A DNA stretch of 64,000 nucleotides from Hydrogenophaga intermedia. Lineage in GTDB: Bacteria > Pseudomonadota > Gammaproteobacteria > Burkholderiales > Burkholderiaceae_C. Numbering within the stretch: the first letter of the stretch is position 1; the number at the start of each line of letters is the position of its first letter. Shown here piece by piece: positions 17,347 through 24,377 of this stretch. Under the pieces are notes generated by a model, which had not been told where the DNA came from, did not search any database, and worked only from the letters and a program-made list of their open reading frames with translations. Both the position numbers and the translations under genes were made by a program. The stretch spans positions 1 to 64,000 of the forward strand of contig NZ_CCAE010000020.1 of assembly GCF_000723405.1 (NCBI RefSeq), given 5' to 3'.

Positions 17347-17436
17347 AATGTGAATACATCACAGGTTTAGACCCCAACACGGCACAGTATCCAACGCCTG
17401 TCAGTGAAAAACTTTCCGTCATACGGAGGTATTCAT

Positions 17437-18126
17437 ATGCGACAGGCAACTGACACGGTTTGGGGGAGCAACACGCAGTTTTCGACGGGCGAGGCCAGGG
17501 CCTTGAGCCAGGCCCACCTGCTGCGGGTGTTCGACGAGGTGGACTACGGCATGCTGCTGCTCGACCCGCAAGGGCGCATCCTGCACGCCAACCACCTGGC
17601 GCGCCACGAGCTGGCGCAGCGGCGCGTGCTGCGCGCCTGCAGCGGCAACCTCATGGGCAGCAGCGCCGAGCACAGCGAGCGCATCCAGCAGGCCCTGGAC
17701 GCCGCCAGCCGCGGGCAGCGACGCCTGCTGCTCATGCGCGAAGGCGAGCGCGACCTGTCCATGGCCTTCACCCCGCTGTCACACCCGCTGGAAGACGACA
17801 CGCCCACCGTGCTGGTGCTGCTGTCGCGCCAGAGCGCCAGCGACAACCTGGCCGTGCGCATGTTCGCCCGCGCCCTGAGCCTGAGCCCCACCGAGGAGGT
17901 GGTGATGCTGGCCCTGTGCCGCGGCCTGGACGTGCAAGAGATCGCCGCCGAGAACGGCGTGGCCATCTCCACCGTGCGCAGCCAGGTCAAGACCCTGCGC
18001 GAAAAGGCCGGCGCCAGCAGCGTGCGCCGCCTGCTGCAACGCGTGAACAGTCTGCCGCCCGTGGTGCCTGCCTTGCGCATCATCACGCCGGTCGCGCACA
18101 ATCCGGTGGCCTACTCCCACCCGTAG
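17437..18126 (+). CDS. LuxR-family transcriptional regulator with PAS-like N-terminal region
   Basis: This is a 229-residue regulator. An N-terminal PAS-like segment (VFDEVDYGMLLLDPQGRILHANHLARHEL) precedes a LuxR-type HTH (SLSPTEEVVMLALCRGLDVQEIAAENGVAISTVRSQVKTLREKAG, residues about 145-195). The DNA-binding helix is IAAENGVAISTVRSQVKTL. The start was fixed by an excellent GGAGGT six nt before the ATG at 17437. No autoinducer-binding or receiver domain is evident. It is followed ten nt later by the CRP-type regulator gene. Confidence 0.85.
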   Translation: MRQATDTVWGSNTQFSTGEARALSQAHLLRVFDEVDYGMLLLDPQGRILHANHLARHELAQRRVLRACSGNLMGSSAEHSERIQQALDAASRGQRRLLLMREGERDLSMAFTPLSHPLEDDTPTVLVLLSRQSASDNLAVRMFARALSLSPTEEVVMLALCRGLDVQEIAAENGVAISTVRSQVKTLREKAGASSVRRLLQRVNSLPPVVPALRIITPVAHNPVAYSHP

Positions 18127-18136
18127 CCACCACCGG

Positions 18137-18790
18137 ATGCCCTTAGCCAGCGCTTCGACTTTCCCCTCGCAGAACACGCAGCACATCGAAGCACTGGCCG
18201 CGCAAGGGATCCACCGCCGCTACCGCCGCGGTGCCTTGCTCATTCAGGAAGGCGAAACCGGCGACACCCTCTACATCGTGCTGCAAGGCCGCTTGCGCGC
18301 CTACGTGGCCGATGCCTCTGGCCGCGAACTCACCCTGGGTCTGTACGGCCCGCTCGAATACGTGGGCGAAATGTCGCTCGACGGCGGCCCGCGCTCGGCC
18401 AACGTGGAGGCGGCCGAGGCCAGCACCTGCTCCGTGGTCACGCGCGACCGGCTACTGGCCTACATCGCCGAGCACCCCGAATTCGCCTTCGAACTCATGG
18501 CGCGCCTGATCCGGCGCGCGCGCCTGGCCACCGAGAGCGCGCGCAGCGTGGCGCTGATCGATGTCTATGGCCGCCTGGTGAAGCTGCTCAACGGCTGGGC
18601 GCTGGAGCCGCAGGAAGAAGACGGCGCCCGCCCGCTGCGCGAGCGCTTGACGCACCAGCAGATGGCCCAGCACCTGGCGTGTTCACGCGAGATGGTGAGC
18701 CGGCTGTTGAAGGACCTGGAGAACGGCGGCTACATCGCCGTGCGGGAGCGGCGCATCTGGTTGCTGAAGAACCTGCCGGCGCGGTGGTGA
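18137..18790 (+). CDS. CRP/FNR-family transcriptional regulator with intact cyclic-nucleotide cassette
   Basis: The 217-residue protein has an N-terminal cyclic-nucleotide-binding beta-barrel and a C-terminal winged HTH (HQQMAQHLACSREMVSRLLK). The phosphate-binding cassette is readable as VGEMSLDGGPRSANV: the Gly-Glu pair and Arg-Ser pair correspond to CRP residues that hold cAMP, with serine after arginine as in cAMP binders. The N terminus lacks an FNR iron-sulfur cysteine set. A class III cyclase gene lies 3.1 kb away, making cAMP a plausible ligand. Confidence 0.87.
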   Translation: MPLASASTFPSQNTQHIEALAAQGIHRRYRRGALLIQEGETGDTLYIVLQGRLRAYVADASGRELTLGLYGPLEYVGEMSLDGGPRSANVEAAEASTCSVVTRDRLLAYIAEHPEFAFELMARLIRRARLATESARSVALIDVYGRLVKLLNGWALEPQEEDGARPLRERLTHQQMAQHLACSREMVSRLLKDLENGGYIAVRERRIWLLKNLPARW

Positions 18791-18811: not shown

Positions 18812-20755
18812 TCAACCCAAGCTGTTGAGCAAACGCCGCGCCTCCTTCGGCGCCGACGAACTCGTGCCCGCCAGCCGCACCGTGCTGCCGCTCAGGCTGC
18901 CCGTGGCGCGCACGCCCCACAACGCGGGGTTGTCGTCGCAGGCCGCCAATGTCTCGGGCACCAGCTTCACGTCGGGCCGCTGTGCGCGCGCCGGGCCCGG
19001 GTCGGGCCGTTGCGGCGAATAGCGCGCGAAGCGCGAGAGGTTCTGCGGCCCGTTGTCGGCCACGCGCGTGCCACCCACGCTGACCGTGCGCTGCCCGGTG
19101 GACAGGCTGTTGAACACACCGCTGCGTCGGATGGGCGTGGGGTTGCCCGGTTGGTCCACCCAGCCGTTCAGGTTGCCCTGGGTGTCGTAGAACCGGTCCT
19201 CCAGATACGACTGCCGCCCGCCCGTGTGCAGGCCAAGGGCGATGTCGTCGCGTTCCACGTAGGCGTCGAACACCACTGCGCTGCGGCCCCGGTTGCGCAG
19301 CGTCACCGTCCACACGCCGCAAGGCGCGAGCGGGTGGTCGGCTTCGCGGCTGGCCGTGCATTCCAGCACCAGCAGTGCGCAGGTGCCGCGCTCGCCCAGG
19401 GCGCTGCGCGTGGGGTAGATCAGCGACCACAATGGCTGGCCCTGCGCGTCCGTCCACATGCCTGACTGGCCTTGTCTTAGCGTCACCGCCTGCTCCGGCC
19501 GATCCGGCGGCGCGACGCTCAGGCTCACGCCCTCGGCGCCGTCGGGCAGCCAGATCTCCAGGAAGCTCTGCGTGTGGTCGTCAGGCTGGATGCGCCAGTG
19601 CAATGGCAGCGATTCGCCCGGTGCGAGCGTGGCGTTGGCGTGCGTGCGGGATTGGTAGCCATTGCCACCGGGCAGGGTGATGCGCAGGCGCCCGCCGAGC
19701 TTGTCCACCAGCTCATCCATTGCCGCCTCCAGCAGCGAGCTGCCGTCGTGCGGCCCGGCCAGGGTGCCCCAGCTCACGTTGGCCACGATGTCGGCGTCGT
19801 CCGCGCAGCGCGAGACGATGTACATCAGGCCGTCGAGCACGCTCACGTTCATGGCACCGCCCGAGGTGTCGAGCACGTTGGCCCAGTCGAGCTGCACGGC
19901 CACGATGGCGCTGCGGCTCGCGGCGTCGTCCAGGCCCGGGTTGAGCAGCCCACCCGGCGCCGTGGCCAGGCCGGTGACGTGCGTGCCGTGGTTGACGGGG
20001 TGCGACAGATCCCAGAGCTGCACGTACTGGTACACCGCCTCTTCGTCAACCTGGCCCCGTCGCGTGAACTCGGCCCTCACGCGGTCGATGGCCTCGCGGT
20101 CCAGTTCATGGCCGTAGCCCATGTCGGCCGGGCGGGGGCCGGCGCGGCGCGGGTCCAGCGGTACGCGGCGGTTGTCGGGCGAGCCGGGCCAGCGGCCGCC
20201 ATAGAAGTTGTCCTGCCGCCAGAAGTGGCGCACGCGCGTGTGGCCGCGCGCATCGAGAAAGGCTGCATTGGCGATGGCCAGGCCGCCGTCGATGACACCC
20301 AGCACCGACCCGCGCACACGCTGGCGCGGCGGCTGCGGGCGGCAGTGTGGTGTGCAGAACTCCGTGAGGCCCAGTGGCAGTTGCTCGACCGGCAGGCCCA
20401 GCTCGAAACGCTTGATGAGATCGCGCAGCGCGGGCTGGTTGCGCCAGTGGCGGAAGAACTCGCGCGAGACGCGCGCGCTGCAGTGGCGCAGACCGGGCAC
20501 CAGCAGGTAGGCAAGCGGTATGCGCAGCCACTGGGTGGAGGTGGCGTCCACGAGCTGGCGCACGTCCACGCCCTCGCGCAGGCCGATGACGATGGGCATC
20601 CACTTGATGGGCACCGGCTCGCGGCCGGGTATGTGGTAGCCCAGGAAGCCGTCGGCCTCGGCCCAGGCCAGGTAGGGGTCCATGCCGTCGATGGCCCCGG
20701 GGGCGGACCAGTCGATGCCGGTGAATTCGCCCGTGGGCAGCGGGCGCCAGGTCAT
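18812..20755 (-). CDS. S8 family serine peptidase (subtilase), no signal peptide
   Basis: This 647-residue protein carries a complete subtilase triad: Asp in SVLGVIDGGLA (about residue 156), His in NHGTHVTGLA (about 256) and Ser in LAGTSSSAP (about 632). The oxyanion asparagine is in LPGGNGYQSR. A large insertion (about 380-560) with beta-sandwich character separates the Asn and Ser regions. The N terminus (MTWRPLPTGEFTGIDW) has no signal peptide, lipobox or membrane segment, so it probably acts in the cytoplasm unless exported by a non-Sec route. GGAGGT lies upstream of the ATG at 20755. It is last of three tightly spaced genes. Confidence 0.88.
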   Translation of the reverse strand: MTWRPLPTGEFTGIDWSAPGAIDGMDPYLAWAEADGFLGYHIPGREPVPIKWMPIVIGLREGVDVRQLVDATSTQWLRIPLAYLLVPGLRHCSARVSREFFRHWRNQPALRDLIKRFELGLPVEQLPLGLTEFCTPHCRPQPPRQRVRGSVLGVIDGGLAIANAAFLDARGHTRVRHFWRQDNFYGGRWPGSPDNRRVPLDPRRAGPRPADMGYGHELDREAIDRVRAEFTRRGQVDEEAVYQYVQLWDLSHPVNHGTHVTGLATAPGGLLNPGLDDAASRSAIVAVQLDWANVLDTSGGAMNVSVLDGLMYIVSRCADDADIVANVSWGTLAGPHDGSSLLEAAMDELVDKLGGRLRITLPGGNGYQSRTHANATLAPGESLPLHWRIQPDDHTQSFLEIWLPDGAEGVSLSVAPPDRPEQAVTLRQGQSGMWTDAQGQPLWSLIYPTRSALGERGTCALLVLECTASREADHPLAPCGVWTVTLRNRGRSAVVFDAYVERDDIALGLHTGGRQSYLEDRFYDTQGNLNGWVDQPGNPTPIRRSGVFNSLSTGQRTVSVGGTRVADNGPQNLSRFARYSPQRPDPGPARAQRPDVKLVPETLAACDDNPALWGVRATGSLSGSTVRLAGTSSSAPKEARRLLNSLG

Positions 20756-20786
20756 CGGATGACCTCCGCGCAACGCGCCGCGCCGC

Positions 20787-21890
20787 TCATGGCCATTCCT
20801 TCACGGCTTCTTCCCACAGCCAGTTCAGCAACGGTGCTTCGCCCACGGCGCGGGCGCGCGGGTCGCGGGTGTAGGGGTAGCCGCTGGCGTGGTCCATGGG
20901 GTCGTTCAGGCTGAAGTCCTTGGGGGCGCCATCGGGCTCGTGGAACAGCGAAGAGTTGAAGCCGCGCGCATGAACCTTGCCGCCCGTGGCGCGCGCCACG
21001 ATGAACTCGGCCAGTGCGGTGCCCAGCAGGCGGCCCGCGGCGCTGTCCACGGGGTAGTGCAAGCCGGCCACGGTGCGGTTGATGGCAATGCGCGCCGCCA
21101 GGCGCTGCAACTGCTCGCGGCTGGCCACGCCGTTGCCGGGGTGGCGCGCGGTGGTGGGCGAACCGGCGTCGAGCAGGGCCTGCAGCAAGGTGGCGGCCAG
21201 GAAGGCTTCGGTGGAGTGGCCGCTGGGCCAGGCGCCGTGCCCCGGGGTCGGGATCATGGGCTGGATCTGCGGCGAGAACTCCACCGGGCGCGTGGTGGAG
21301 AACATGAACTTGAAGCGCTGGGTGACGCTGGCGGCGAGGTTGAATGCCACCTCCAGCAGTTGCAGCGTCTTGCCGTGGCGGTGCGCGGTGAGGCCCACGA
21401 CCGAACTCCAGAAGGCGATGGGGTAGCCCATCTGCTCGGTGATTTCCAGCGAGCGGTCGGTGCGCAGGTCGGCGTAGGCGGCGACGAGCGAGAGCTGCTT
21501 CTTCAGCAGTGCTTCGTCGGGGCCCTTGAGCGTGACGAGGGTGTGCGGCGTGCCCTGGCGCGAGTACTGAAGCTCGGCGCGGTACTGGCGGGCGTTCGTG
21601 CCGAAGCTCAGGCCTTCCATGAGCTCGGAGCCGATGGCCTGTACGCGAGGGCCGTCGGCCCAGCGCTTGAGGTTGGTCGGGTCGTTGAAGGCGGGCCATT
21701 TGACTTTCAGCGTCGGGCCGTCGTAGGGCCCCACGATGGCTGCTCTGGAGAGGGTCAAGGCGTCGGCGGACGCGAGGTAGGGCACGGCGCCGGCGGGCGC
21801 GCCGTAGCCCCCGCTGTAACCGCCACTGTAGCCACCGCTATATCCGCCGCTGTATCCACCGCTATAGCCACCGCTGTATCCACCACTCAT
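20787..21890 (-). CDS. PAP2 / vanadium-haloperoxidase-fold phosphatase with N-terminal SGGY repeats
   Basis: The 367-residue protein holds all three PAP2/haloperoxidase motifs: K-x6-RP as KFMFSTTRP, PSGH as WPSGHSTEAF and the R-x5-H-x3-D form NRTVAGLHYPVD. Residues 2-29 are seven exact SGGY repeats, a low-complexity tyrosine/glycine tail. No signal peptide or clear set of membrane helices is seen, which favours a soluble vanadium-haloperoxidase-like member over membrane lipid phosphatases. A strong AAGGAGG precedes the ATG. It starts 33 nt after the cyclase gene and ends 31 nt before the subtilase. Confidence 0.85.
   Translation of the reverse strand: MSGGYSGGYSGGYSGGYSGGYSGGYSGGYGAPAGAVPYLASADALTLSRAAIVGPYDGPTLKVKWPAFNDPTNLKRWADGPRVQAIGSELMEGLSFGTNARQYRAELQYSRQGTPHTLVTLKGPDEALLKKQLSLVAAYADLRTDRSLEITEQMGYPIAFWSSVVGLTAHRHGKTLQLLEVAFNLAASVTQRFKFMFSTTRPVEFSPQIQPMIPTPGHGAWPSGHSTEAFLAATLLQALLDAGSPTTARHPGNGVASREQLQRLAARIAINRTVAGLHYPVDSAAGRLLGTALAEFIVARATGGKVHARGFNSSLFHEPDGAPKDFSLNDPMDHASGYPYTRDPRARAVGEAPLLNWLWEEAVKEWP
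21804..21887 (-). repeat. Seven tandem 12-nt repeats encoding SGGY
   Basis: Twelve-nucleotide units, differing only at synonymous positions, encode seven SGGY units at the N terminus of the PAP2-fold protein. The array is a natural site for slippage and copy-number change in steps of four residues. Confidence 0.93.
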
Positions 21891-21923
21891 GCTGTCCTCC
21901 TTGAAATTTGCGATTGATGTGAA

Positions 21924-23750
21924 CTAGTGAATGGGCAGGCCCAAGGCCTTGAGCACTCTTGCGCCATGCTGGCGCAGACGACTCTCCCGACCTGACGCCA
22001 GATACCGATCCAGCGTCAAGTCGGGTTGAAGTTTGAGAATCGTGTCGAGCGTCTTGCGAGCACCCTCGACATCGCCGGTTTCGTACTGAGCGATGACATA
22101 CGCGCGAAGCGTCGGTAGGTGATAGCAGTTCTTCTGCAGGGACGCTCGGCATTGTTCTGCCGCCTGAGCGTGTTGGCCCATCGAGAGGTAGCAATTCGCC
22201 AGCATCATCTCGAAGTAGTACTTCTGCGGATCGAGCGGAGAGAGGTGCAGCGCCGTCTCCGCTTCCACCACCGACTCCTGAGCGGTGCCCCACATGGTTG
22301 ACCAGACGCTGCGGTACAGCCACGCCATCGGGTCGTTGGGATTGTTGAGCGTCGACTCGAACAACAATTGCCGCGCCGCCTCTACATCGGCGCCCAGATG
22401 GCACAGCGCATGCCCCTTGATCGCCATCGCGAGCGAGCTGTGCGGCTCCAGATCCAGCGCGCGGTCGGCCACCGCAATCGCGGCGCGGAAGGTCTGCGCC
22501 GGCTCGGGCGCCAGACCCTGCACCACCTGCATGATGTGCCACTTCGCCAACCACGCCCACGGCGTGGCCACGCGCTTGTGCCGCTCCACCACCGCCTCCA
22601 GCAGTTGCTGGCTGCGCTGCAGGTCGCGCGGCGTGGAGCGGTGCATCAGGGTGATGCCGCCCAGCATCAGCGCGTTGCTGTCGAGCTGCGGCACCGGCAG
22701 CACCAGCGTGCGCTGCACCATGTGCTGAAGCAGCGCCTCGGCGCAGGCCTCGCTCAACTGGTGGATCAACTGGCTGTCGCTCTGCAGCAGGTCCATCACG
22801 TCGCCCGCCAGGCGCTCGGCCCACACCACCTCGCCGCGGCGGGTGTCGCAGAGTTCGGCGTTGATCACGACCTTGTCGCCGTAGCTCACGTAGCTCCCGC
22901 TGAGCGTGTACGCCGCCTCCAGCCGCTGCCCCACCTCGGCCGCCGTGGCCTGCCGGCCGCGGAAGGCGCTGGTGGACAGGCGCGAGATCACGCGCAGATC
23001 GGGGCTGCGCGAGAGCTGGGTGATCACGCCGTCGGCCAGCAGCTCGCCGATGACGTACTGCTCCTGCGAGTGGCTGCGCGTCTCGAAGGGCACCACGGCG
23101 ATGCTGGGGCGGAAGTCGCTGGTGGCGGCCTCGGGCGCGGGCATGCGCGGCACCGCGCCCTGCGCCGACACGGGCGTCACCGTCCAGGTGCGCACCGGCT
23201 CGGGCCAGTGCTTCAGGTAGCTCTCGCCACGGTCCTGCACCTCGGCGTCGATGCCGACGACGATGGCGTCGTACACGCTGGCGGTGACCACGGTCTCGCC
23301 GGGCGTGGCCAGATCGGCCACGCGCGCCGCCAGGTTCACGCCCTGGCCGTAGATGTCGTGGTCGTCGACGTAGAGCTGGGTGGCGTTGAGGCCGGCGCGC
23401 AGGTGCAGTTGCTGCGCGGCCGGCAGGTTCTGGTTGGCCGCGTCGAAGTGGCGGTGCAGGGCCATGGCGGCGCGCACGGCCTGGGCCGGGTGCTCGAATT
23501 CGGCGAGCAGGCCGTCACCCAGGCTCTTGACCAGGCGCCCGCCGTGCAGGGGGAAGACCTCGGTGGTGGCGTGGTGCACGAAGCCGCGCCACAGGCGCAC
23601 CACCTGTTCTTCGTTGTGCGCCATCAGGCGCACGGACTCGACGAGATCGATCACGAGCACGGTCTTGTGCTGCACCGGCGGCAACTCCACGGCCTGGCCC
23701 TTGGGGGGTGATGCAGGCTCGGAAGAGAAGGGTGCGGGAGAGGGGACCAT
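21924..23750 (-). CDS. Class III adenylate/guanylate cyclase with TolB-like and TPR regions
   Basis: The protein is 608 residues from the ATG at 23750. An N-terminal cyclase homology domain (about 25-185) keeps the catalytic set: a metal Asp in VLVIDLVES, Lys and the second Asp in LVKSLGDGLLAEF, and the Asn/Arg pair in YGQGVNLAARVADLATPGE. A TolB-like segment (SIAVVPFETRSHSQEQYVIGELLADGV) and TPR-type repeats to the C terminus follow. No membrane segments are seen. This architecture is common among stand-alone cyclases of alpha- and betaproteobacteria. It is first in an operon with the PAP2-fold and subtilase genes. Confidence 0.9.
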   Translation of the reverse strand: MVPSPAPFSSEPASPPKGQAVELPPVQHKTVLVIDLVESVRLMAHNEEQVVRLWRGFVHHATTEVFPLHGGRLVKSLGDGLLAEFEHPAQAVRAAMALHRHFDAANQNLPAAQQLHLRAGLNATQLYVDDHDIYGQGVNLAARVADLATPGETVVTASVYDAIVVGIDAEVQDRGESYLKHWPEPVRTWTVTPVSAQGAVPRMPAPEAATSDFRPSIAVVPFETRSHSQEQYVIGELLADGVITQLSRSPDLRVISRLSTSAFRGRQATAAEVGQRLEAAYTLSGSYVSYGDKVVINAELCDTRRGEVVWAERLAGDVMDLLQSDSQLIHQLSEACAEALLQHMVQRTLVLPVPQLDSNALMLGGITLMHRSTPRDLQRSQQLLEAVVERHKRVATPWAWLAKWHIMQVVQGLAPEPAQTFRAAIAVADRALDLEPHSSLAMAIKGHALCHLGADVEAARQLLFESTLNNPNDPMAWLYRSVWSTMWGTAQESVVEAETALHLSPLDPQKYYFEMMLANCYLSMGQHAQAAEQCRASLQKNCYHLPTLRAYVIAQYETGDVEGARKTLDTILKLQPDLTLDRYLASGRESRLRQHGARVLKALGLPIH

Positions 23751-23832
23751 GCGGGCAAATGTGACCAAACGATTCAGTTTCGCACAATCGATATCGCGCG
23801 ACGGGGCCAATGGCCGATGAAAGTGCAGAAAC

Positions 23833-23861
23833 GACAAAGCCGACGGGACGTCGGCTTTGTC
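23833..23861 (-). terminator. Perfect 13-bp hairpin after the SWIB/H1-like gene
   Basis: GACAAAGCCGACG and its perfect complement flank a three-base loop, 34 nt past the SWIB gene stop on the minus strand. The downstream T run is short (GTTTCTG). It probably separates the SWIB gene from the cyclase operon. Confidence 0.7.
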
Positions 23862-23894: not shown

Positions 23895-24377
23895 TCACTT
23901 GAGGTGATCGTTGACCAGCTTGGTCATCTCGAACATGGAGGCCTGGGCCTTCTTGAAGATTTCCTTCAGCTTGGCGTCGGCGTTGATCATGCGCTTGTTG
24001 ACCGAGTCCTGCAGCTTGTTCTTCTTGATGTAGTCCCACACCTTCTTGGTCACCTCGGTGCGCGGCAGCGGGTTGCTGCCGACGATGGCGGCCAGGGCGG
24101 CGCTGGGGGTCAGGGCCTTCATGAAGGCGGCGTTGGGGGTGCGCTTCTTGGCGGGGGCCTTCTTCGCGGCGGCTTTCTTGGCCGGAGCGGCTTTCTTCGC
24201 AGGCGCCTTCTTGGCCGGGGCGGCTTTCTTCGCCGGGGCCTTCTTGGCCGGAGCGGCCTTCTTCGCCGGAGCGGCCTTCTTGGCCGGAGCGGCCTTCTTC
24301 GCCGGGGCGGCTTTCTTGGCCGGGGCGGCCTTCTTCGCCGGAGCCTTCTTCGCGGCGGCTTTCTTCGCAGTTGCCAT
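23895..24377 (-). CDS. SWIB/MDM2-domain protein with histone-H1-like lysine/alanine-rich tail
   Basis: In this 160-residue protein the first 80 or so residues are tandem PAKKA-type repeats like those of bacterial histone H1-like and AlgP proteins. The rest is a SWIB domain (about 82-160: FMKALTPSAALAAIVGSNPL, TEVTKKVWDYIKKNKLQD, RMINADAKLKEIF). The basic tail should bind DNA; the SWIB fold suggests a protein- or DNA-contact module in the nucleoid. GAAGGA precedes the ATG. The upstream 24378-24651 holds the divergent promoters and nothing else clear. Confidence 0.9.
   Translation of the reverse strand: MATAKKAAAKKAPAKKAAPAKKAAPAKKAAPAKKAAPAKKAAPAKKAPAKKAAPAKKAPAKKAAPAKKAAAKKAPAKKRTPNAAFMKALTPSAALAAIVGSNPLPRTEVTKKVWDYIKKNKLQDSVNKRMINADAKLKEIFKKAQASMFEMTKLVNDHLK

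Follow-up and report, generated by a model that had tools for sequence, protein, structure and literature searches.

The 64,000-nt stretch analyzed here (the window; positions 1 to 64,000 of Hydrogenophaga intermedia contig NZ_CCAE010000020.1) contains a three-gene operon that looks like an undescribed peptide-recognition signaling system. Its genes (Table 1) encode a regulator with an adenylyl cyclase-type domain and C-terminal tetratricopeptide repeats (TPRs), a PAP2-family protein headed by a tandem peptide array, and a subtilisin-type protease. We propose that the operon is a ligand–receptor module in which the array, cut or uncut, is the cognate ligand of the regulator's TPR domain, whose occupancy switches the output; we place this reading slightly above an even chance. 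The intergenic gaps are 33 nt (gene 1–gene 2) and 31 nt (gene 2–gene 3), and ribosome-binding sites precede gene 2 (AAGGAGG) and gene 3 (GGAGG). Re-reading bore out this arrangement of three minus-strand genes as given in an initial annotation of the DNA, as it did the statement that no signal peptide is visible, by direct reading of the sequence, on any of the three proteins. The same annotation called the cyclase stand-alone, which is incorrect: the cyclase occupies residues 26–190 only and is followed by a FlgO/TolB-like stretch and then by TPRs (Pfam). It also recorded the SGGY repeat correctly, and missed the most informative feature of that repeat, the change of unit from species to species.

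The operon proved genuine, and its conservation is strong. Genome searches covered the window's own phylum, and the named loci that were opened belong to Proteobacteria. A PAP2 protein scan of genome contigs gave 34 loci, including Hydrogenophaga, Polaromonas, Rhodoferax, Ramlibacter, Curvibacter, Variovorax, Rubrivivax, Methylibium and Rhodobacteraceae. The cyclase–PAP2–subtilase order and strand are kept in 29 of these, which disagrees with the possibility, raised in the initial annotation, that the homologs would lie mostly in unrelated contexts. The single operon described there, encoding cytoplasmic-looking proteins and a nucleotide-cyclase domain, is supported, and it is conserved. The exceptions are L026, where the contig begins at the PAP2 gene; L045, L047 and L048, with another regulator type on the opposite strand; and L050, which lacks the protease. 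At E ≤ 1e-15, sampled genomes with a match to the PAP2 profile numbered 66 of 399 in the family and 31 of 398 in the phylum. Eight weak PAP2 matches that were inspected (L098, L101–L107) have no regulator, protease or array nearby, and several have a secreted-like start. Among plasmids, 103 records matched PAP2, all at <60% identity; the 14 that were opened all carry a regulator match, an S8 protease match and an array, including L114, whose array sits behind a start misplaced by the script and was seen all the same. Phage cargo was rejected as an explanation, the phage collection giving zero matches. Word searches of open-licence PubMed Central papers for the gene set and its composition returned nothing whose title or opening abstract lines concern such a system, in keeping with the earlier remark that none had been described, and the passages on conflict systems in eLife 52696 contain no PAP2 or haloperoxidase.

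Nearly every close relative of the PAP2 protein begins with a short repeat, and the repeated peptide differs between them. Among 130 non-redundant PAP2 loci, a script called 107 arrays comprising 68 distinct units up to rotation, 2–10 amino acids long, mostly of 3 (69 arrays) or 4 (27 arrays) residues, in about 4–18 copies; no unit in these 107 arrays contains Cys. Hydrogenophaga-type units are SGGY, SGGF, SGGV, SGGA, SGGI and SAGV; Phaeobacter uses NSF, and GGA, TGT, QGI, MTS, GGGR, ASLWPR, GGIGRT, TGN, TQQ and NK occur elsewhere. Different units also coexist within one genome that carries two modules (GGF/NAE in G882, TAM/GNQ in G1099, SGGA/AGGS in G686 and SHS/TSA in G488). Chance does not account for the arrays: comparable N-terminal ones were found in 50 of 66 called PAP2 genes as against 5 of 1077 other called open reading frames of at least 100 amino acids at the same loci, three of those 5 being a histone H1-like neighbor gene. 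At one locus (L111:6899-7966), the array changes unit midway, from NAH x3 to TAQ x4, possibly a transitional state.

Within a locus, by contrast with this diversity between loci, the array is nearly invariant. In 106 arrays totaling 3034 residues, 42 residues departed from the first unit, and neighboring units gave a proportion of synonymous differences (pS) of 0.82 against a nonsynonymous proportion (pN) of 0.0085, for a pN/pS of 0.010. Distinct DNA units numbered 533, compared with 528 expected from random local codon usage. With synonymous codons randomized and the peptide hardly altered, most arrays must therefore be old and kept at the protein level rather than by DNA slippage, and slippage or a neutral repeat was rejected. 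Six arrays, with pS below 0.2, have the appearance of recent DNA expansions, and in Phaeobacter and its near relatives the NSF unit is constant while the copy number varies from 5 to 7. A collagen- or silk-like structure was likewise rejected, the periods ranging from 2 to 10 and some units lacking Gly. The array could instead be an assembly tag, driving self-association or condensation of the PAP2 protein until the protease dissolves the assembly, with a unit that drifts because only repetitiveness counts. The Gly/Ala/Ser-rich composition (G 41%, A 12%, S 11%) and the low-confidence structure prediction of residues 1–39 (predicted local distance difference test score below 50) would suit such a tag. 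Yet a pN/pS this low implies that nearly every residue matters, beyond composition, and units as dissimilar as ASLWPR, NSF, TQQ and NK share no common physical motif; an assembly tag also fails to explain why, as described below, coupling to the unit is closer for the regulator than for the PAP2 core, and we consider it unlikely.

The array unit tracks the regulator. Pairwise identities were compared between same-unit and different-unit pairs, given protease identity, among 96 loci with all three genes; the pairs are non-independent. The identity excess of same-unit pairs was 0.175 in the C-terminal TPR segment (TPRC), 0.117 in the N-terminal TPRs, 0.065 in the TolB-like region and 0.043 in the cyclase domain (p 0.06). 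The protease, given cyclase and PAP2, gave −0.014 to −0.022, that is, no positive coupling to the unit. In disjoint sister pairs, picked by PAP2 identity and compared by one-sided tests, TPRC exceeded PAP2 (p 0.008) and the protease (p 0.008) at PAP2 identity ≥0.4 (13 same-unit, 30 different-unit pairs), and did so again at ≥0.5 (p 0.021 and 0.019, respectively). The segment limit, residue 441, was fixed after viewing 16 profiles; a window-wise scan is independent of that limit, but its predictors are cyclase, PAP2 and protease. On these sequence comparisons, the regulator is well supported as the partner of the array unit, and its last TPRs are the likely exact partner site.

A cassette exchange is visible in the DNA. 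Between the window and H. borbori (L018, unit SGGF), nucleotide identity in 120-nt bins is 57–77% in six bins from 22460 to 21860, spanning the C-terminal TPRs through the array, and 79–97% in the others. Comparing L018 with L017, whose PAP2 protein is 98% identical to that of the window, synonymous divergence (dS) is 2.27 in TPRC, 0.29–0.35 elsewhere in the gene and 0.2–0.5 in the PAP2 core. The other five different-unit pairs that were profiled drop at the same place, L167/L024 least clearly; same-unit pairs keep high identity there, with a raised TPRC dS in some (L019/L020, 1.27 versus about 0.6). The window and H. borbori thus differ by exchange of a TPR-plus-array cassette. Joint arrival of array and TPR segment would be one way for all units of an array to change simultaneously.

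The array goes together with the regulator and protease genes. Short flanks excluded six of the 130 loci (L002, L006, L026, L070, L135 and L173; L135 and L173 have a regulator and array with <600 nt downstream), leaving 124. Of 115 loci with a regulator, 111 also have a protease close to the PAP2 gene, and the script called an array in 104 of these 111; of the seven others, two have imperfect arrays (L034 and L141) and one, L124, has a DAR array that the script missed. No array was found in the 13 protease-less loci, four of which have a regulator (L050, L158, L159 and L161) and nine neither gene. The subtilase catalytic residues D156, H256, N365 and S632 are invariant in alignment A2, and the gene 3 profile matches CspB-type S8 structures; the window protease scores just below the Pfam S8 gathering score (21.3 vs 21.8; E 1.9e-4), which its relatives L045, L125 and L127 exceed. 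The protease type is swappable: Peptidase_A4 (A4/eqolisin) replaces the subtilase in L122 (E 1.4e-27) and L123 (E 3.3e-23), and L157 matches both by tblastn.

The array might serve only as a cleavage tag that the protease removes to activate the PAP2 phosphatase, with the unit following protease drift and linkage producing the regulator signal. The missing arrays of the four regulator-bearing loci that lack a protease agree with this, whereas protease identity shows no positive coupling to the unit, about 4–18 redundant copies should relax a selection that is in fact strict, and the unit is coupled strongly to the regulator on one flank of the array and weakly to the neighboring PAP2 sequence on the other (0.175 vs 0.028); we regard a cleavage tag as rather improbable. 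Alternatively, the array may be a multi-copy precursor fused to PAP2 in the manner of a ribosomally synthesized and post-translationally modified peptide, freed by the protease, with the TPR regulator merely controlling expression. Identical tandem cores and the near-constant protease are what such a precursor would display, and a Trp-halogenase gene lies between regulator and PAP2 gene in L028 (8302-9765), L033 (1518-3020) and L034 (8317-9819) only, where units contain Trp (GGWS). L033 and L034 are, however, near-identical, leaving only two independent cases, and no halogenase was found in the fetched stretch of the Trp-unit loci L031, L127, L130, L148, L153, L162, L164 and L166; with no exporter gene noted in the operon and no modifying enzyme noted in most loci, a modified-peptide precursor seems doubtful to us.

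Turning to the output side of the regulator, the window protein carries the cyclase residues D35, K75, D79, D132, N139 and R143 in one chain, all conserved in relatives; we take D35/D79 to be the metal-binding aspartates, K75/D132 the ATP-specifying Lys/Asp pair and N139/R143 the transition-state residues. The domain scores above the Pfam Guanylate_cyc gathering score (26.8 vs 21.9), and a structure model of gene 1 combines a cyclase-like domain with a helical repeat region, with PDB matches to class III cyclases and consensus TPR proteins. The window regulator is accordingly annotated by its residues as a putative adenylyl (ATP-type) cyclase, predicted to produce cyclic AMP (cAMP). Across loci the output domain is swappable: by our own profile at 1e-5, 91 of 118 regulators have a cyclase domain, 26 have none and 1 is cut off, the 26 being OmpR-type, SARP-type or degenerate (typed by eye and from plasmid annotation). 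Regulators L146–L150, beside hexapeptide arrays (GGIGRN, ASLWPR and others), have no recognizable cyclase domain, whether degenerate or lost.

These outputs bear on the initial annotation's idea of a nucleotide-signaled effector operon, taken here as cAMP-signaled, whose outputs would be cytoplasmic phosphatase and protease activities. The complete catalytic motifs it listed are indeed present in all three proteins and conserved among relatives. The cyclase is, on the other hand, one of several outputs mounted on a TPR regulator and is absent in recognizable form from the 26 regulators above; a CRP-type factor encoded nearby is a plausible receptor for cAMP instead; and neither PAP2 nor the protease has a Pfam match to a cyclic nucleotide monophosphate (cNMP)-binding domain. 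The operon is not mainly an effector operon, and we find that reading very improbable.

The PAP2 protein itself contains the motifs KX6RP, PSGH and RX5HX3D, conserved in relatives, and scores above the Pfam PAP2 cutoff (42.6 vs 27.2). Its best fold match is acid phosphatase 7f17, with a template modeling score of 0.66–0.67 by target length and 0.40 by query; because class A acid phosphatases rank first in the fold search, the label of haloperoxidase was dropped. The motif set is shared with class A acid phosphatases and vanadium haloperoxidases of the PAP2 superfamily, from which the window protein differs in being cytoplasmic-looking, array-headed and tied to fixed operon partners.

Several points weigh against the array as ligand of the regulator TPRs. 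The PAP2 core also shows an excess in same-unit pairs (0.028, 0.073 and 0.031 in three parts), smaller yet passing permutation at p 0.001, and choosing sister pairs by PAP2 identity favors a conserved PAP2 core. In the independent sister pairs, TPRC did not differ significantly from the cyclase domain (p 0.19 at ≥0.5, 0.34 at ≥0.4), and the cyclase and TolB regions, compared with PAP2, were also significant (p about 0.02 and at most 0.01, respectively; 0.018 and 0.0005 at ≥0.4); the regulator as a whole is therefore better supported than its last TPRs alone. Pairs other than those profiled beforehand gave p 0.03, 0.03 and 0.40 for TPRC against PAP2, protease and cyclase at ≥0.4 (6 same, 27 different), and 0.12, 0.12 and 0.48 at ≥0.5 (4 same, 14 different). 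Unit changes on trees are only slightly fewer for TPRC (21) than for other segments (23–26), with a minimum of 17, and the helices presumed concave hold no excess of the top co-varying TPR positions. Motif patterns are incomplete in 21 of the 91 cyclase domains; L131, L133, L155 and L156 carry regulator and protease with no clear array; and ancestry confounds the protease–array count, because the protease-less loci are also those with distant PAP2 proteins. The PAP2 domain, acid-phosphatase-like in its modeled fold, is without a clear role. Finally, action between cells lacks an export route, because there is neither a visible signal peptide nor a transporter in the operon.

In the ligand–receptor module we propose, the N-terminal PAP2 array, left uncut or cut by the co-encoded protease, would bind the TPR domain of the upstream regulator, and occupancy would switch the output domain in one direction or the other, acting within the cell or possibly between cells. 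In the window the output domain would be an adenylyl cyclase, with the CRP-type factor encoded alongside sensing its cAMP; other species would instead fuse a DNA-binding domain to a similar TPR receptor. Each module would have a private code: units differ among species and among paralogs in one genome, and an array could travel with its TPR segment as one cassette. A bolder and more tentative version, possible but in our estimate not probable, is a proteobacterial system of peptide-pheromone or kin recognition, in which each species has its own tandem peptide with units of 2–10 residues. A dedicated protease would free the peptide from its PAP2 carrier, a TPR receptor inside the cell would respond to it by making cAMP or binding DNA, and receptor and array would be exchanged together, on chromosomes and on plasmids, as cassettes that set specificity. 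Should the array prove to be the receptor ligand, these loci would hold a modular peptide-recognition code in Gram-negative bacteria and a natural library of 68 units with their TPR partners. It would also explain a group of proteins, encoded in Comamonadaceae-type genomes and on plasmids of alphaproteobacteria, whose annotation goes no further than adenylate/guanylate cyclase, PAP2 phosphatase or S8 peptidase.

Known systems offer partial parallels. The RRNPPA regulators of Bacillota (Rap, NprR, PlcR, AimR and others) are described as cytoplasmic TPR receptors with a variable N-terminal output domain, whose peptide gene lies directly downstream in Bacillales and whose propeptides in some cases hold several pheromones (PMC9765709; PMC11343458). 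The window regulator resembles them, by description only, in its Pfam TPR matches, modeled helical repeats and PDB matches to consensus TPR proteins. It differs in having no small exported propeptide gene beside it, the next gene being that for the array-bearing PAP2 protein; in the phylum of the named loci, which is not Bacillota; in outputs of class III cyclase, OmpR or SARP type; and in a protease inside the operon. Because the exported propeptide and the phylum do not fit, the operon was not filed under RRNPPA. In agr and ComQXPA, a hypervariable receptor-plus-signal segment flanked by conserved sequence is exchanged as a cassette. The TPR-plus-array segment behaves likewise, although here there is no membrane histidine kinase and no exported modified peptide is known. 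PADLOC gave a weak PycC match for gene 1 (E 5e-8) and none for genes 2 and 3; the operon shares a class III cyclase with Pycsar, in which a cyclic pyrimidine cyclase is paired with a TM or TIR effector, and differs in its ATP-type residues, in having no PADLOC-matched effector and in its candidate reader, a CRP-type factor.

Table 1. Operon, domain and flanking features, with positions in the window
Feature	Position	Strand	Description
Gene 1	21924..23750	-	608 aa regulator (REG/CYC): class III adenylyl-cyclase domain, FlgO/TolB-like region, C-terminal TPR
Cyclase domain	23181..23675	-	residues 26-190; ATP-type K75/D132; best PDB fold matches are cyclases
C-terminal TPR segment (TPRC)	21927..22430	-	residues 441-608; strongest unit co-variation in the all-pairs test; mosaic trough versus L018
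Gene 2	20787..21890	-	367 aa PAP2-family protein with N-terminal peptide array
Peptide array SGGY x7	21804..21887	-	residues 2-29; 7 different DNA units encode one peptide unit
Gene 3	18812..20755	-	647 aa S8 (subtilisin-type) protease, no visible signal peptide
CRP-family regulator	18137..18790	+	cNMP-binding domain (E 3.9e-21); convergent to operon
LuxR-type helix-turn-helix regulator	17437..18126	+	PAS match below cutoff; 5' of CRP gene, same strand; start by ribosome site
TGTGA-N5-TCACA palindrome	17349..17363	+	5' of LuxR-CRP pair; one other exact genome site
TTGTGCGAAACTG	23775..23787	-	directly 5' of gene 1
Terminator-like hairpin	23834..23860	-	between H1-like gene and gene 1, by direct reading

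The segment delimited initially holds the three genes and stops before two conserved convergent genes at 17437-18790. The product of the second, the CRP gene, resembles solved CRP-family proteins, and a homolog is present in the fetched stretch of 20 of the 34 loci. Among loci flanked by 4 kb or more, 37 of 73 cyclase-type loci have a CRP-type gene no farther than 9 kb away, compared with 0 of 23 others, and this neighbor is a plausible candidate receptor of cAMP. The palindrome 5' of the LuxR–CRP pair, whose right half is kept in aligned relatives and whose left half is kept partly, may mediate CRP autoregulation. Upstream of gene 1, TGTGMGAAACTG is found in the window and in all 8 aligned Hydrogenophaga-type loci. 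In its own genome this 13-base motif has one match at ≤1 mismatch, as does a reversed control, and its rarity was therefore rejected as evidence. The hairpin between the H1-like gene and gene 1 means that the operon may have its own promoter. The histone H1-like gene, with AKKA-type repeats (23895-24377), lies directly 5' of the operon on the same strand, as it does in the eight aligned Hydrogenophaga-type relatives.

An extra gene set occurs at L022 (13190-18756) and at L025, L027, L028, L029 and L035, mostly in the interval between operon and CRP gene, and in L030 on the operon's other side; it encodes a small unknown protein, a methyltransferase and a ~1060-aa cyclase-AAA-TPR protein, joined at some loci by an M4 thermolysin-type protease. 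In only some Variovorax/Ramlibacter loci (L041, L044, L046 and L049), a gene for an SBP_bac_5 (oligopeptide-type) binding protein follows the protease gene on the same strand, at a distance of 2–27 nt, or ~420 nt in L049, the assignment resting on Pfam for L041 and L046.

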